A stretch of 64,000 nucleotides of DNA, from assembly GCA_017591395.1 (NCBI GenBank), contig WEDG01003229.1, positions 61,713 through 125,712 of the forward strand. The letters are read 5' to 3'. Each line of letters starts with the position of its first letter. Within the stretch, counting starts at the first letter, position 1. The DNA is from Schistocephalus solidus (Eukaryota; Platyhelminthes; Cestoda; Diphyllobothriidea; Diphyllobothriidae). A program made the position numbers and the translations under genes. This document shows, piece after piece, positions 411-60,423 of this stretch. The notes below the pieces were generated by a model that saw nothing but the letters and a program-made list of their open reading frames with translations, ran no database searches and had not been told where the DNA came from.

Positions 411-1209
411 TTCGATTTTAACGGCTGTTGATAAAGGTAACCGGATGCATAGGAGTCGCAGTTGCTCTACAACGAAACTTAATAAAATTGGTGGGTTCCA
501 CATTCATCACGGGTGTTCGTTCTTTGTACAACGATGCCTTCGTCGCCCGTACCTAATTCATTAATGGCCGCGATGCCATCACTAGTGTTCACGAGAATTA
601 CCCAACCTTTTGGACCATTACTATCTAAGGAAGCGTTGTTCACCCACGTGCTCCCCGCGTGACCAATTTCTCCGCTCCGCCAGTCTTGGAACCGAGCAGG
701 GATGAGGGGCACGATTGTACTTGTTTATGGACTGCGAAATGGAGAAGCATATCTCCAATATCTCGCCTTTTATTTGAAATCCGCGCTTAACTTTATCAGC
801 AATCAGCCACTCAGCCAAGAACGCAATTACCGAAGAACACTTCATCGCCGCGTGTAGACACGCTGCAATACTGTCGGGCTCTTAGAGTGAATGACTACCC
901 GCGCAATTTCGTCAATTGGCTTATGTAAAGAGATAAGAGGCCAACTAGCACCGGAGCCAGGTTTTTTTCGTAGATACAAACGTCTTGGGTGCCGGTTGCA
1001 CGCGGGCCGGAGATTATTTGCGCCAGTTGATGATGCCAAAATGTCTTTCTTTCTTAATCAACGTTCGTTTGCGGAAATAAAGAACAGTCATTGGCAGCCG
1101 GACTATCTGAAAAATTACTACAGGCATAGATTTTTGAACACAAATCAGCAGCCAGAAGGAAGGTGTTGCATTCTCTCAAAAGTTACCAGTCGCGAACTAA
1201 TTGATCCAT

Positions 1210-5710: not shown

Positions 5711-5960
5711 ACCGTTAAATTGTTGGACTACTAACCAACAGATCGCGAGTTCCAGCGTCTGGTGCCGTATCGCCTGGGGTTTTATATGGCTGGCTGATGA
5801 CGGTTAATAAGCCAGAAATAGCCATTCCAGTCTCCCTGGTTTTTGTCGATAATTTTATGCCGCCTAAACCACTAGTCGCTGTGCAGCTGCTCTCGAGAGT
5901 GAGCTTCAAGGCGGAACGGGACGATTGAGTCCCGTAACAGCTCGGTGAGTGTAAGCATCG
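5711..5960 (+). repeat. tRNA-derived SINE, plus orientation, head truncated
   Basis: It contains the B-box end of the tRNA-like head (gatcgcgagttccagcg) and the full SINE body: ggctggctgatga, gccattccagtctccct, gccgcctaaaccactagtcg, gcttcaaggcggaacggga and ctcggtgagtg. It lies about 10 bp from the minus-oriented unit and forms an inverted pair with it. Confidence 0.65.
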
Positions 5961-11784: not shown

Positions 11785-12240
11785 GAAGGAGTTAGTTTGC
11801 TCGCTGGAATCCTATCTTTATTCATCTGAGCTTTCAAACTCTTACTGGAGTCCATCATAAGAGGTGAAAGCGGCAACGAAAAACAAGCATCTGTTATACA
11901 AGGTAGGGGCCAACCAAACATCAGCAGTTCCTACGAAAGGGATTACGAGTTTAACTTCGCAGCCACGAGGATAATTGCCCACGCCAGAAGCAAGACAAGC
12001 CGCGAATCGATCGAAGTCTGGGCCTCCGATGAGAGTTCGTCAATTGATTTATCGATCGGGCGTCAGCATAAAGAGCCCCGCACTGGCGTTATTGATGTTT
12101 ACTTCGCCCCTTACCCATCAAATGTCGTTTGTTTTTTGCCGCTTTCGTCTTTACCGATAGACTCCAGTAATAAGTTGAAAGCTCACATGAATAAAGACAT
12201 GATTCCGGTGAGTGAACAGCCTCTTCCTTAGTAATTTTGT
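11785..12240. mobile_element. Inverted pair of Penelope-like element (PLE) 3' ends
   Basis: The minus strand at 11785-11930 carries the PLE tail that ends the long PLE near 46.1 kb. The plus strand at 11935-12240 carries a longer piece: the end of the endonuclease coding region (EFNFAATRIIAHARSKTSRE at about 11945-12005) and the same tail. The two pieces therefore face away from each other around 11930. The coding part is interrupted and non-functional. Each tail holds a decayed hammerhead-like motif. Confidence 0.75.
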
Positions 12241-13984: not shown

Positions 13985-14290
13985 AAGAAGAAGGTTGTTC
14001 ACTCGCCAGAATCATGGCTTTATTCGTCTGAGCTTTCGAACTCTTACTAGAGTTCACCGTCAGAGATAAAAGTGACAAAAAAACAGCACCAAATATACGG
14101 GGTAGGGGCCAATCAAACACTGGTGACACCAGTCCGGAGGTGACTGTGCAGGCCTCGGTATGCCGGCCCCAGATCGATAAATCGAGTTGCTCTTATTGGT
14201 TTTTATTGCCGCTTTTATCTCTGACGATGGACTCCAGTAAGAGTTAGAAATCTCAGACGAATAAAGTCATGATTCCAGCAAGCGAATAAT
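13985..14290. mobile_element. Inverted pair of PLE 3' ends
   Basis: The minus strand at 14140-13985 and the plus strand at about 14150-14290 both read the PLE tail (actc-agtaagagtt, gaaa-ctcagacgaataaag, gattc-agc-agcgaa). Both copies are non-coding. The arrangement repeats that at 11785-12240, so it is not a one-off. Confidence 0.7.
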
Positions 14291-20489: not shown

Positions 20490-20775
20490 TGACAAGACAA
20501 CGTGCCCATGACTCAATGGTTAGAGCATTTGGCTTCTAACAAACTGGTCGCGAGATCGAGCCTCATTGGTTGCACAGCCTGGGGTTGGTTATGGCTGGCT
20601 GATGAAGGCTAATGAGTCAGAAATGGCCCTTCCAGTGACCCTTGTCTTGGTCAGCAATCTTATGCTGCCTAGACCAATATCCGCTGAGCGGCTGCTGCTG
20701 GGAACTGAGAGTGAGCCTCACGGCAGAACGGGACGAGTGTCCCGTATCGCGATCGGTGAGTGCTCCCTCTAGGAA
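20490..20775 (+). repeat. tRNA-derived SINE, plus orientation, nearly full length
   Basis: The tRNA-like head reads catgactcaatggttagagc (A box) and gtcgcgagatcgagcctcat (B-box region). The body contains tggctggctgatgaaggct, cccttccagtgacccttgtc, gctgcctagaccaatatccg and gcctcacggcagaacggga. The opposite-facing body fragment lies at 19873-19985. Confidence 0.7.
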
Positions 20776-23210: not shown

Positions 23211-23397
23211 CAGCTACGACCTCCATCGATGAACAAGAGGACTGATAATTATTGTAGGCATGTGGTCACCTGGTCACTGTCCTATAAATACTGCACAGCT
23301 CGTGTCTTTAGTATAGTTGTCTGCGACTTTTTATGATAATAGGTTTGAATTAGGATCCGAAACGTCAAGCCAACAAACTTCTTGTTCCAACAATCAC

Positions 23398-23488
23398 ATC
23401 CTCATCATCATCATCATCCTCATCCTCCTCCTCCTCCTCCTCATCATCATCATCACCGTCATAATCGTCGTCGTCGTCGTCGTCGTCG

Positions 23489-23575
<87 letters not shown>

Positions 23576-27955: not shown

Positions 27956-27965
27956 TTGACGGAGA

Positions 27966-28755
<790 letters not shown>

Positions 28756-28900
28756 GTGTCAGACACCCAGGCCTTCAGCGATTCCCGCCCCGGCTTACTG
28801 CTGGCTCGCGCTCCAACCCGCGTACTCGCGAAGTTAAATTCGTGGTCTGTTTTGGCTTCATTATTCGCGAGCAGGTCAAAGATTTCGGCACAACTACTGG
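28756..28900 (-). pseudogene. PLE C-terminal coding fragment
   Basis: Minus-strand codons read TDHEFNFASTRVGARASSK and then PGRESLKAW, matching the PLE block GHEFNFAATRIIAHARSKTS at 45.85 kb. The (GAT)n array starts on the next codons downstream. Upstream homology stops at about 28900. Confidence 0.7.
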
Positions 28901-43476: not shown

Positions 43477-44681
43477 TTGGAACTAAAACGGGATACGTTG
43501 CAGCCATCCGTCACAGGGAGCTCGAACTTGGTTCACAACCTCTCATCCAAGGAACTAACGGAGCAACAACTACGAGTGCTGCGGCATGAAGCTTGTTGTA
43601 ACACCGTCGATGCCGACCCTGTTGAATTTACTGCAGCCATGGAAGCCCTGCATTTTGAGAACTGAAACGACCGACAACGAGAAACACTGCGTTCGACAAC
43701 GTCTCACCTCTTTGCTGATGGCTCACAGGCCAACCCAATGGGTTTCGAAGAGTGAGTCAAAAGCTATGAGGAAACCATAGACGGATGACAAATTATCATT
43801 CTACTAGCGGATAAGGGACGATGAACTGTCGTAATAAATCGAGAAGACTACAATGAGAAAGTCGAGGTTCTACTTAATGATAGAGAATTTTTCAAACCAG
43901 CACAGGATGCACAAGCCAACGCAGTAGCAGATCGGTTGAATAGATAACTCGGAGAATTCGAACGCTAAAATGTGATCACGGAGAACGAACGGCACCAAAT
44001 GAAACCAATGGATCCTGCCCTAGCTCGCTTCCTCGGTCTGTCAAAGATCCATAAACCAAGAGTTTCACTGCGGCCAATCGTTGTCTTTTAGGATGCACTC
44101 GAAACTGAAATTCCTCCAAAACAATTCTAATGCCTCAGTCTATTCAGCCTCCCAATTCCTGTCAGACGTTCAAGGTCAGAGGATTCAATCGGACGAAATG
44201 ATGGTCACTTTTGACGTGATGTCATTATTCATATCCATCCCGAAGAGTTTAGCACAGGCAGTCTTGCGCAGGAAACTTGAGGAATCATACGACGAAAGCC
44301 AGAGCTCGCTAAAAATTGAACATCTTATGAGAATGTTTGAATTTTGTCAAAAGACCTACTTCAATTTTGTCGGAGAAACCTATTAGCCAATCAAAGGGAC
44401 TCCAATTGGCTCCCCAATCTCCGATTAAGTGACAGAATTGGTCCTAAAAAAGCTGGAAAAGATTGTCTTAAACCAACAGCCGCCGATCTTTTGGCACCAT
44501 TACGTAGATGACACATTTGCTATTGTCAAGAGGGACATGCTGCAGAATTTCCATTATACCCTCAACTCTACCTTCCCAGTTATACAATTCACGAGGGACG
44601 GAGAAAAAGAGCTGCAGCTGCCATTCCTTGATATGCTCGTCAGGCGAAGTCCCAACGGCGAAATAGATACAGCTGTTAACC
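43477..44681 (+). pseudogene. PLE reverse transcriptase, degraded
   Basis: In order: NLSSKELTEQQLRVLRHEAC and TSLLMAHRP (N-terminal domain); FDVMSLFISIPKSLAQAVL (RT motif A; the catalytic Asp is in TFDV); EFCQKTYFNFVGETY; KGTPIGSPIS (motif B); and HYVDDTFAIVK (motif C, YVDD intact) at about 44500. Then come ELQLPFLDMLVRRSPNGEID and the break at about 44680. At least eight in-frame stops or shifts occur, mostly at 43665-44080. Confidence 0.85.
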
Positions 44682-44995
44682 TGTCACACCAAACCCCAGG
44701 TGGTGCACCACCCGACAATCTAACCCGCGACCCGTTGATCAGAAGTCGAACGCTCTAACCATTGAGCCATTGGCTCGTTGTCTTGCAGGTTTAAATCGGG
44801 ACTATTGACTTCCATTCGTTGATGAACGCTCACCGAGCGCTAACGGAATCCCCCCGTTCCGCTCTGCCTTGAGGCTGACACTCGAGCCCCGCCAGAATCC
44901 ACACAGCGACTAGTAGTAGAGTACACAGATGAATATTGCAAGCAGACAAGGGAGACTGGAATAGCCATTTCGGGCTTGTCAACGAATGCAAGTCG
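44682..44995 (-). repeat. tRNA-derived SINE unit(s), minus orientation, inserted in the PLE
   Basis: The minus strand reads SINE body (44990-44820: gctattccagtctccctt, gcctcaaggcagagcggaac, gagcgttcatcaacgaatg), then a tRNA-like head (44800-44725: atggctcaatggttagagcg, ggtcgcgggttagattg), then the start of another body (ggtggtgcaccacctgggg). That is body-head-body, as in the 5435-5700 copy. Confidence 0.75.
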
Positions 44996-45002
44996 ATAGT
45001 CC

Positions 45003-45309
45003 CTATATAAACCGGCAAGACAACGAGCCCGTGGCTCAATGGTTAGAGCGCTGTACTTCTGATCAATGGGTCGTGCGTTCGATCCTTGAGTGGTGCAACA
45101 CCTGGGATCGGGTATGACGGGCTGACGACAGCTTCTGTACCAACAATGGGTATTTTAGTCTCCCTCGATTTTGCCGGCAATATTTGCCTGCTTACTCTAC
45201 TACTAGCCGCTGTGTGGCTGCTGGCGGGGTTCGAAATTGAGCCTCAAGGCAGAGCGGAACGAATGAGTTCCGTTAGCGTTCGGCGAGCGTTCATCAACGA
45301 ATGCAAGAA
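45003..45309 (+). repeat. tRNA-derived SINE, plus orientation, full length
   Basis: A-box-like tggctcaatgg at 45032-45042 and B-box-like gcgttcgatcc at 45075-45085 mark the pol III promoter of the tRNA-derived head. The body follows with ccgctgtgtggctgctgg and gcctcaaggcagagcggaac. It ends gcgttcatcaacgaatgcaa near 45306. PLE sequence resumes at about 45312 with the codons for TVYRK. Confidence 0.8.
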
Positions 45310-45312
45310 ACG

Positions 45313-46036
45313 ACTGTCTACAGGAAGGCGACGAACAGCACGCAGCTTCTCATTTTTTGACAGCAACAATCCGGTGGCTCATAAAAGAAGCTGTATGAGA
45401 ACACTGCTCAAACGCATCTAGACTTATTGCACCAACCCGGCAGAAAAAGCACGTAAGCCCGTTAACTCTGCGACCAGTTTATGCGGAACGGCTATCCGAA
45501 GGTGTTCATAAGTCGATGCCTACCATAGCAAGACCCTATGGTATCGCATGCGCTGCCATACATCAAGGGCGTGTCAGAAGCGACCGTGCGCATTGCTGCG
45601 AGATTGGTGTCGAATTGCACCCCGGCCAAAAGCTACCATGCGCAGCAGGGTCATGAAAATCAAAGTCAGGTTAAATCCTAATGAGCAGTCGGGTGTAGTG
45701 TATCGAATCCCGTGCCAAAACTGCTCCCATAAATACACAGGACGGACTGGACGTATGCTCGGATCGCGCAAACGCGAGCAGAAGCTGGCTGTGAGACTGG
45801 GTGACGGCTTATCACAAGTGGCTGCCCACACCTACGAAACGGGTCACGAGTTTAACTTCGCAGCCACGAGGATAATTGCCCACGCCAGAAGCAAGACAAG
45901 CCGAGAACTGACGGAAGCCTGTGCCCCGATGAGAACTCGGCCAATCGATATATCGATCTGGCGCCGGCTTACAGGGTCCTGCGCAGTCATCTCCGTACTG
46001 GCGTCACCGATGTTTGATTGGGCTTACCCCGTATAA
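45313..46036 (+). pseudogene. PLE RT C-terminus and GIY-YIG endonuclease, degraded
   Basis: It resumes TVYRKATNSTQLLIF after the SINEs, then NNPVAHKRSCMRTLLKRI to the stop near 45419. The frame 45548-46036 holds the GIY-YIG nuclease: SGVVYRIPCQNCSHKYTGRT and GRMLGSRKREQK, with the cysteine pair CQNC typical of Penelope EN and YTG where YIG is expected. It continues QVAAHTYETGHEFNFAATRI and a C-terminal tail. The nuclease cleaves target DNA for insertion; this copy is interrupted before it at 45420-45547. Confidence 0.8.
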
Positions 46037-46054: not shown

Positions 46055-46110
46055 CACTTATCTCTGACAATGGACTCCAGTAAGAGTTCGAAAGCTCAGA
46101 CGAATATAGC
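46055..46110 (+). ncRNA. Decayed hammerhead-ribozyme-like motif, PLE tail
   Basis: CTGACAA at 46064-46070 stands where the core CTGATGA is expected. A perfect 6-bp stem II (GGACTC 46072-46077 with GAGTTC 46084-46089, one G-U) is followed by GAAA-GCT-C (46090-46097), where AGCT could form a minimal stem III and C is the cleavage nucleotide. Stem I starts TCT/AGA. Two core positions are changed, so activity is unlikely here. Confidence 0.5.
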
Positions 46111-46321
46111 CAGGATTCCGGCGAGCGAACCTCCAGTTTTTCTTGAAATTTGTGTGTGGATTAATTTGGCTGCTAGTCCACTACCGCAGCCGCTGCCGCT
46201 TCCGACCCTAGTTTGTGTATTTCCCTACCTGTTGAGTGCTTTCCACGGGAAAAATAGCGATTCAATGAATTAGATGATCATATAAACTTTTATTTGATCT
46301 AGTTTTTAAAAGAGTGAGTAT

Positions 46322-46738
46322 GCCTTGTATGGCCGCCTAAACAGGACACGAGAATGGGAACCGCCCACAATACATGTGGCTTTGCGCCCAATTCCAAGGA
46401 ACTTCTGCTTATGATTACGGTGAGGGTAAGGGTTAGGCTGAAGTTTGCGGTTATGGTCAGAGTTGGGCTATGATTATGCTCTGTCTCTGATGACGGATTC
46501 GAGTGATAACCCGAAACGTCAGGCAAATAAACCTATTGTTCCAGTGATCGTGGCTCCTTCTTCGTGACCTCACCTCTTCGCTTCTAAGGGTTAAGATTAA
46601 GGATACAGTTTAGTTTTTTTTAGCATTACAATAAGGGTATATTTGCCCTTTGTGAAATTTACCATAAGCTTACTTATTTTAAGCGGGCGTGGCGGTTCCT
46701 ATTTCCATGTCCTGTTTGGGCAGCCATACAAGATATCC
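46322..46738. mobile_element. Candidate element with ~50-bp terminal inverted repeats
   Basis: The left end (cttgtatggccgcctaaaca, ggaca, gggaaccgccca) and the reverse complement of the right end (cttgtatggctgcccaaaca, ggaca, aggaaccgcca) match closely. The interior holds gttagg-like words, the hammerhead-like motif at 46482-46525 and an AT-rich part. It has no coding capacity. A related left end appears at 24300-24350. No target duplication is obvious. Confidence 0.55.
46482..46525 (+). ncRNA. Hammerhead-ribozyme-like motif (best copy)
   Basis: Stem I: TGTCT (46482-46486) pairs with AGGCA (46521-46525), 5 bp with one G-U. The core CTGATGA is exact (46487-46493). Stem II is short and imperfect (GG/CC plus TT/AA with a bulge; 46495-46511). 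Then GAAAC-GT-C (46513-46520) gives G12 A13 A14, an ACGT minimal stem III and a GTC cleavage triplet. This layout, with a nearly loop-less stem III, is the one I recall as described for Penelope-like elements. Cleavage would fall after C 46520. Confidence 0.65.
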
Positions 46739-46744
46739 CTACCG

Positions 46745-59103: not shown

Positions 59104-59142
59104 GATAACGAAATCGGAGGGTTTTGAGGTTCATAACGCTCA

Positions 59143-60423
59143 ATGCGCTTTCGACGTGCTCCTCGCCTAATGGGTTCCTTATTTCGTTATTTCAAGGAGC
59201 GCGTTTGTGGTGTTCACCTCTACTCCCCCCTATCACCGAAACGTTCGAGCTGTTTCTGCTCATTCTTGGCGGGAACGAACCCAACGGACATTCGCAGCCA
59301 TAAATTGGCCTTCTCACGCCACGTTCTTACTGGTCATCTTCCAAATTTACTTTGCCCATTTGTCCTAGCGTTAAGATTGTTCTTTCCTGAGGGCTTCTTC
59401 GGTTACGTCCTGACATTTTCGTTACTGCTGCTTTTGTTAGCAAGCGTCATCCATCTTCTGGAAAACATTGCTGTCTTTGCTCCAACTGAGCCGGAAAATG
59501 CGCGGTTCCTCATCGAGTGTCCTAAATCCAACGACTTCCTCTGTTGGAAGGTTGTAAAACTTCGTCCTCAGACAATAGAAAACGACCTTGAACTCAAGTG
59601 CATCTTCATACTTCATCCAGATGTTAGGAGGCGTGAGACCGCACCCACCCTCCTATTTCTCCACGGCAACGCAGGCAACATTGGCCACCGTGTGCCGTTG
59701 TGTCGGGCGCTGCAGGAGGTTTGTGGAGCCAACTTCTTTCTTTTGGAGTACAGGGGGTTTGGATATAACGGAGGGCAGCCTTCTGAATTAGGTTTGTACG
59801 CCGACGCAATTGCGGCCTTGGACTATTTGACAAACTGCAGTGAAATCAATCCACGCAATATCTTCGTCTACGGTCGGTCTCTTGGTGGTGCTGTTGCTAT
59901 CGAACTTGCCACACGTGCAGATACATGTGGCAAGCTCCGCGGGGTAATAATAGAGAACACGTTCTCTTCAATAGCGGAGATGGGACAAGCGATCGGTTCA
60001 ACTATTGCCGGTTCGCCGGCTAAGCTACTTCCGACCTTCGCGATCGCTAACAAATTCGAATCCTTAGAAAAATTAAATAAACGGCTGCCGCAACTTCAGG
60101 ACAAAGAGCGCTGTCGATTCTTGTTTCTCTCCGGGGGCAAGGACGAACTCATACCACCAGAAATGATGTACAGACTAGCAAAGTCCTGTTTCGAACATTT
60201 ACATATGGATGCACACGATGCGAAAGATCTCCCGAACGATAAGCCACCCTGGGTATATGATCCCGTTGACTTTAGCAGCAAAGGCAGTGAGGGTCTGGTA
60301 CTCTTTCCTGATGGCGAACATGGGACCACCTGGCTGTGTGATCACTATCCACAAGTTGTTAACCGTTTTCTATTGGTGCACAACGAAAAACTCGAAACGG
60401 ACCTGATAGTGCGCGACCTTTAA
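59143..60423 (+). CDS. ABHD13: ABHD13-like alpha/beta hydrolase, single exon
   Basis: ABHD13 (Bem46 family) proteins are membrane-anchored serine hydrolases; vertebrate ABHD13 has been linked to protein depalmitoylation. The 426-residue frame is uninterrupted. A hydrophobic anchor lies at about residues 85-106 (GYVLTFSLLLLLLASVIHLL). Then come the oxyanion-hole motif FLHGNAGN, EYRGFGYNGG, and the nucleophile elbow GRSLGG with Ser246. The acid is Asp334 in GGKDELIP and the base His393 in GEHGTTW, so the Ser-Asp-His triad is complete. Vertebrate homologues have about 337 residues. The extra length is mainly an N-terminal extension of about 50-60 residues and acidic loop sequence around 350-380 (HDAKDLPNDKPPW). 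Met10 is an alternative start. A splice acceptor lies 40 nt upstream and AATAAA 61 nt downstream. It is convergent with the dehydrogenase gene. Confidence 0.93.
   Translation: MRFRRAPRLMGSLFRYFKERVCGVHLYSPLSPKRSSCFCSFLAGTNPTDIRSHKLAFSRHVLTGHLPNLLCPFVLALRLFFPEGFFGYVLTFSLLLLLLASVIHLLENIAVFAPTEPENARFLIECPKSNDFLCWKVVKLRPQTIENDLELKCIFILHPDVRRRETAPTLLFLHGNAGNIGHRVPLCRALQEVCGANFFLLEYRGFGYNGGQPSELGLYADAIAALDYLTNCSEINPRNIFVYGRSLGGAVAIELATRADTCGKLRGVIIENTFSSIAEMGQAIGSTIAGSPAKLLPTFAIANKFESLEKLNKRLPQLQDKERCRFLFLSGGKDELIPPEMMYRLAKSCFEHLHMDAHDAKDLPNDKPPWVYDPVDFSSKGSEGLVLFPDGEHGTTWLCDHYPQVVNRFLLVHNEKLETDLIVRDL

Follow-up and report, generated by a model that had tools for sequence, protein, structure and literature searches.

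Penelope-like elements (PLEs) carry minimal type I hammerheads (Cervera and de la Pena 2014; Lunse et al. 2017), and these are the closest described systems to the unit reported here. As portrayed in text citing those papers, they share with our unit the type I order, a near-absent stem III, a position in terminal repeats, and an expected action as dimers. The part of a review that we consulted gives the role of the PLE ribozyme as unknown (PMC7761336). Penelope elements are abundant in tapeworms, making up about 10% of the assembly in two related species according to a published table (PMC8166898). A literature search combining Schistocephalus with hammerhead gave no match, the species lists of the founding PLE-hammerhead papers being outside its scope, and among the matches listed for Schistocephalus solidus with Penelope none was about ribozymes by title.

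We analyzed a stretch of 64,000 nucleotides, referred to as the window, which corresponds to positions 61713-125712 of contig G000:C2664 in a 604-Mb assembly. A window gene, ABHD13 (59137-60423), is 100% identical to a Schistocephalus solidus record. The segment at 46481-46584 is very probably a truncated S. solidus PLE tail, made up of a minimal type I hammerhead lying across the frame start and of about the first 25 codons, which landed as a solo fragment in a copy of an abundant MITE.

Anatomy of the hammerhead unit

We delimited the unit at 46482-46525 on the plus strand from its sequence, a leave-one-out covariance model, base-pair counts, and a check of the core. An earlier note had picked out the motif by eye, and on direct reading every element it listed is present letter for letter. 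Stem I is formed by TGTCT (46482-46486) and AGGCA (46521-46525) and has 5/5 pairs, one of them G.U. The core consists of CTGATGA (46487-46493) and a second strand at 46513-46516, with GAA at 46513-46515, and a single unpaired base, C at 46494, stands between A9 and stem II. Stem II, GGATTC (46495-46500) with TAACCC (46507-46512), encloses loop II, GAGTGA (46501-46506). Its weakness, also remarked on in the note, is real: four of six positions pair, in the order G-C, G-C, A.C mismatch, U-A, U-A, C.U mismatch. Stem III is the palindrome ACGT (46516-46519), with 2/2 pairs. C17 follows at 46520, and from the sequence reading cleavage is predicted directly after it, at the position the note had given. 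Judged against CUGANGA, GAA, A15.1-U16.1, and an H17 that is not G, this copy has no core mismatch, a state found in 3 of 20 copies.

Copies of the unit and their homology

Comparison of the window with itself showed that 46481-46560 is a repeat. Its closest relative, a unit on the minus strand at 2370-2432 recognized by the covariance model, is 84% identical over 80 nt (at 2352-2429, on the opposite strand), and weaker similarity extends to 23327-23389 and to PLE-fragment tails at 46061, 14066, and 14218. When the copy was shuffled 1000 times, its real score against each of eight other copies was never reached. A nucleotide profile (nhmmer) built from seven other window copies, with this copy left out, found 46481-46563 with an E value of 1.2e-17. 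The earlier note had asked for a covariance-model check, and the outcome was divided: a leave-one-out model, again made from seven other window copies with 46482-46525 excluded, recovered it with 59.5 bits and an E value of 2.6e-12, whereas the Rfam hammerhead models gave no match.

The further window copies come from the covariance search. One on the plus strand at 46055-46119 lies in the tail of the PLE at 45512-46036 and has an AGCT stem III, an AUG, and G8 changed to A. Another plus-strand copy (23324-23388) runs into an (ATC)n microsatellite. The tail of the PLE fragment 11863-12066 holds a copy at 12142-12206 (plus strand), which has an inverted partner at 11806-11870 (minus strand). Likewise, the tail of the fragment 14186-14100 holds one at 14008-14072 (minus strand), whose inverted partner at 14212-14276 (plus strand) has an intact core and one of two stem III pairs. 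A candidate at 1742-1817 was rejected as too decayed, having an nhmmer E value of 0.0053 and being absent from covariance matches up to an E value of 1.

Inverted pairs of PLE tails flank short PLE fragments at 11806-11870(-)/12142-12206(+), at 14008-14072(-)/14212-14276(+), and, elsewhere in the genome, at 893-957(-)/1323-1387(+) of L008. Microsatellites adjoin PLE tails or ends at 23324-23545, 27964-28871, L037:2738, and L036:1705, and include (ATC)n, an 800-bp (GAT)n array, and (TA)n.

Pairing and conservation across copies

In ten copies from the window and L008, including 46482-46525, 84.6% of 130 cells were paired, compared with at most 43.8% when partners were slid; two of five shuffle covariation measures were weak in this alignment, their values being reached in 27 and 234 of 500 shuffles. 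Ten copies from outside the window, none used for the model, were located in 5 of 20 stretches (200 kb in all) elsewhere in the genome. Here too the paired share of cells was 84.6%, and sliding the partners gave no more than 43.4%; both sides had changed in 10 of 13 pairs. Stem II pair 21-32, for example, is C-G in four of these copies, A-U in three, and U-A in three, while the inner pair of stem III is C-G in six, G-C in two, U-G in one, and unpaired in one. Some bias is possible in these counts, because the contigs that supplied the stretches had been selected by their MITE matches and the copies were located with a structural model, whose matches lean toward the model's own structure.

When all 20 copies are pooled, 12 of 13 pairs have changed on both sides, and at the level of the family the three-helix arrangement is backed by paired changes in stems I and II. 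The letters of stem III vary (AC/GU, AG/CU, and once GG/CC) with self-complementarity mostly kept (37/40 cells paired). Conservation is 0.87 in the catalytic columns, compared with 0.70 in the stems, 0.69 in loop II, and 0.74 in the tail. This combination of pairing, stem III variation, and core conservation is, on comparative grounds, what a hammerhead predicts.

Place in the Penelope-like element

The earlier note had set the motif apart from any PLE open frame. This was not borne out: a plus-strand frame at 45512-46036, resembling the C-terminal, GIY-YIG-type end of a PLE, lies close by upstream of its own tail, and that tail holds the copy at 46055-46119, which begins fewer than 20 bases past the stop. 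Judging by their names, the 32 relatives identified for this frame come from tapeworms, and UniRef labels 4 of them, from S. solidus, as GIY-YIG domain-containing. The GIY-YIG Pfam model had no match in the frame itself and weak matches in 5 of 13 scanned relatives (best E value, 0.00087).

An element elsewhere in the genome (L037) shows this order too, with a reverse transcriptase-type frame at 1062-1442, a GIY-YIG-type frame at 1899-2552, the stop at 2552, and the tail at 2738. Across the two loci, the relatives bear RVT_1 or have names that refer to a reverse transcriptase or a GIY-YIG domain; those of the first 407 residues from L037 have the RVT_1 domain (e.g., P0154). Pfam support for the two domains is weak, falling below curated cutoffs where scores are shown. 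A hammerhead tail thus adjoins a GIY-YIG-type PLE frame at 45512-46036/46055-46119 and follows reverse transcriptase- and GIY-YIG-type frames in L037.

The tails themselves can be translated. From the AUG that uses A9 they read M-x-S-S or similar, followed in many copies by K-R-Q-x-N. We compared tail peptides with the first 150 residues of relatives of the L037 PLE frame (among the matches listed, 120 of 768), and five of them matched N termini of tapeworm PLE-related proteins with best scores of 83 to 186, against shuffled maxima of 40 to 43. In the copy under study, a remnant of the frame start is found by translation at 46493-46567 on the plus strand, where ACG stands instead of ATG and leads into DSSDNPKRQANKPIVPVIVAPSS and a stop; this peptide aligns with residues 3-25 of P0182. 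Of the 20 copies, 13 keep an intact start codon. By these translations and alignments, the hammerhead unit overlaps the PLE start codon, and the tail is the start of the PLE frame (the pLTR-ORF junction). In 19 of the 20 copies A9 is followed by T, the exception being the C at 46494, and this unpaired nucleotide, usually the U of AUG, is as aligned here a modest extra feature of the tapeworm units.

Long inverted repeats at 44675-45307 (arms of 148 and 136 nt, 82-83%) lie between a reverse transcriptase-like frame and the GIY-YIG-type PLE part; that frame, at 44024-44386, was read by eye and has no Pfam reverse transcriptase match. A dispersed repeat family (5714-5950, 20519-20761, and 45042-45287) overlaps an Rfam tRNA match at 20502-20574 and looks like a tRNA-derived SINE.

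The host MITE and the nested insertion

The host element is a MITE copy of about 431 bp (46313-46743) with degenerate TTAGGG-like repeats inside. An inverted-repeat search placed its 42-bp arms at 46324-46365 and 46691-46732. The whole PLE-tail insert, at 46481-46584 on the plus strand, was defined by the MITE alignment, nhmmer, and similarity by eye to the tails of L030, L044, and L037; its edges were read by eye, the right one being good to a few bases. Also by eye, about 104 bp of tail stand where the MITE would have roughly 53-60 bp of its interior. The MITE is a high-copy family, with 4275 first-look candidates in its own genome, of which 40, the window included, were scored.

Of 18 MITE copies in which both ends could be located (the other 2 of the 20 were missing one), 6 had flanking 8-mers that agreed in 7 or 8 letters. 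Such agreement occurred in 2 of 342 mismatched pairings, and the MITE therefore probably generates target duplications of 8 bp. At the window copy itself, 4 of 8 flanking letters are alike, and no target duplication was found. In L002 (1683-1774) and L009, a PLE tail directly abuts the TIR of another MITE copy, so that nesting or abutting of the two repeats occurs elsewhere too. Attachment to telomeres in the manner described for Terminons (PMC6431247, consulted in part) was considered and rejected, since the TTAGGG-like surroundings are ordinary MITE interior and lend that account no support.

Alternative explanations

One alternative is that the likeness to a hammerhead arose by chance. A loose pattern (CTGANGA-N5-35-GAAA-N0-12-GTC) has two matches in the window with 1.16 expected, and since 33 of 100 shuffles reach at least two, it is not significant; the second match, at 5794, lies within the repeat family that overlaps the tRNA-like match and was treated as chance because the covariance search reported no PLE-tail match there. 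Rfam 15 likewise yielded no hammerhead, either in 121 bases around the motif with E values up to 10 or in the whole window at the gathering threshold. The stretch including the PLE-tail copy at 46055-46119 also gave no hammerhead in Rfam, with E values up to 1, and because that copy is missed as well we did not count the silence against 46482-46525, nor did we treat an Rfam match as a defining feature of PLE minimal type I hammerheads. A strict rule (CTGANGA, GAA, a self-complementary ANNT, and no fewer than 5 bp in stem I), devised after the motif was seen, has a single match in the window and turned up once when the whole window was dinucleotide-shuffled 1381 times. Together with the homology to PLE tails, whose stems covary, recovery by the leave-one-out model, and paired changes outside the window, this makes the probability of a chance likeness close to negligible. 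Viral contigs scanned with a 22-base pattern gave 0 matches, and solved-structure searches returned nothing useful.

Two other readings accept the hammerhead and give it a different carrier. The earlier note had placed a Penelope-type hammerhead in a TIR-bounded element as an unusual vehicle, and a ribozyme-bearing, non-autonomous MITE family would account for a unit sitting between 42-bp inverted arms and for a second MITE copy (C4621, in L015) with a PLE tail 81% alike over query 182-269. However, the C4621 tail, the only second hammerhead-part match among the 40 scored MITE places, is reversed, lies at another site, and belongs to a longer PLE piece that has two such tails in inverted arrangement. 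By our own arithmetic, about 10 tails per 200 kb predicts that some 2% of 0.4-kb MITE copies would hold one by chance. None of the 20 other MITE copies fetched, drawn from the scored copies, has a hammerhead at this place in the alignment, and we therefore do not regard the TIR element as a ribozyme vehicle; a MITE-borne ribozyme is very improbable. The PLE minimal hammerhead with its palindromic stem III stands on homology and covariation, while the unusual vehicle does not. An equally improbable reading makes the unit a monomer of a retrozyme-type retroelement, small, circular as RNA, and equipped with type I hammerheads. That would suit a repeat that is short and non-coding, bears a type I hammerhead, and occurs in an animal, and a source consulted in part reports such repeats in platyhelminths (PMC7229834), but no tandem repeat is listed at the locus, the unit encodes a PLE N terminus and follows PLE frames, and stem III is a loopless palindrome, PLE-like rather than canonical for a retrozyme.

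As the MITE alignment indicates, the location of the PLE tail is an ordinary nested PLE insertion in an unrelated small DNA transposon, and the unit at 46482-46525 is, on homology and pairing, a genuine, solitary, partly worn copy of the PLE-tail hammerhead.

Folding and proposed activity

Folding programs, which ignore tertiary contacts, put the hammerhead form of this copy at -1.5 kcal/mol against a minimum of -11.8 kcal/mol as a monomer, and at -3.5 against -26.3 kcal/mol as a dimer. The hammerhead was the predicted minimum in 0 of 19 copies evaluated, 1 of the 20 having been skipped for a gap.

We infer cleavage, its dimer mode, and a role in the PLE cycle. In intact PLEs, the hammerhead would be expected to cut the PLE RNA about 28 nt downstream of the frame start. 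Dimeric action would be most likely, since stem III, a palindromic ACGU or AGCU, cannot form a hairpin within one unit but can pair across two. In our judgement, there is a strong likelihood that the family is a working or once-working ribozyme, and the putative ribozyme of the 46482-46525 copy is probably weak or idle. Taken further, the start codon of tapeworm PLEs might lie inside the ribozyme core, with A9 as the A and the extra nucleotide as the U of AUG, so that the cut, at about 28 nt, would remove the start of the message and self-cleavage and translation would be mutually exclusive for each RNA; some 10^4 such tails (an extrapolation from 10 tails in 200 kb) could exist in the genome, a few of them inside MITEs. 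We put forward this full picture tentatively and think it rather unlikely to hold.

Comparison with known systems

The copies described here put PLE hammerheads on record for a tapeworm and back them with covariation. The tapeworm host sets them apart from the published PLE minimal type I hammerheads, as do, for the 46482-46525 copy, its solo state, weak stem II, and lost start codon. The many natural stem III variants (AC/GU, AG/CU, and once GG/CC) could be used to address both dimer cleavage and the role of the PLE ribozyme. The locus also carries a warning, as a single motif match within a MITE can be nested debris.

The tapeworm unit further differs in its extra unpaired nucleotide after A9, a provisional difference, since the published PLE hammerheads are known here from citing text. 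One unpaired residue directly after A9 also occurs in the self-cleaving plus-strand hammerhead of CChMVd, according to the portion of that report consulted (PMC3705267). There the residue is A, compared with what is usually the U of AUG in the tapeworm units, and the two systems are otherwise unrelated.

The closest parallel to the frame-start overlap is PAc, a Poseidon PLE of Anolis carolinensis, in which, from the part of the study consulted, the hammerhead likewise extends across the beginning of the frame, and C3 and G8 come ahead of the start codon (PMC11167929). PAc belongs to another species and is another PLE, and in the same source its cleavage is shown in vitro only with the PAc protein, whereas the tapeworm unit is known from sequence. 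The overlap known from a lizard PLE thereby extends to flatworms.
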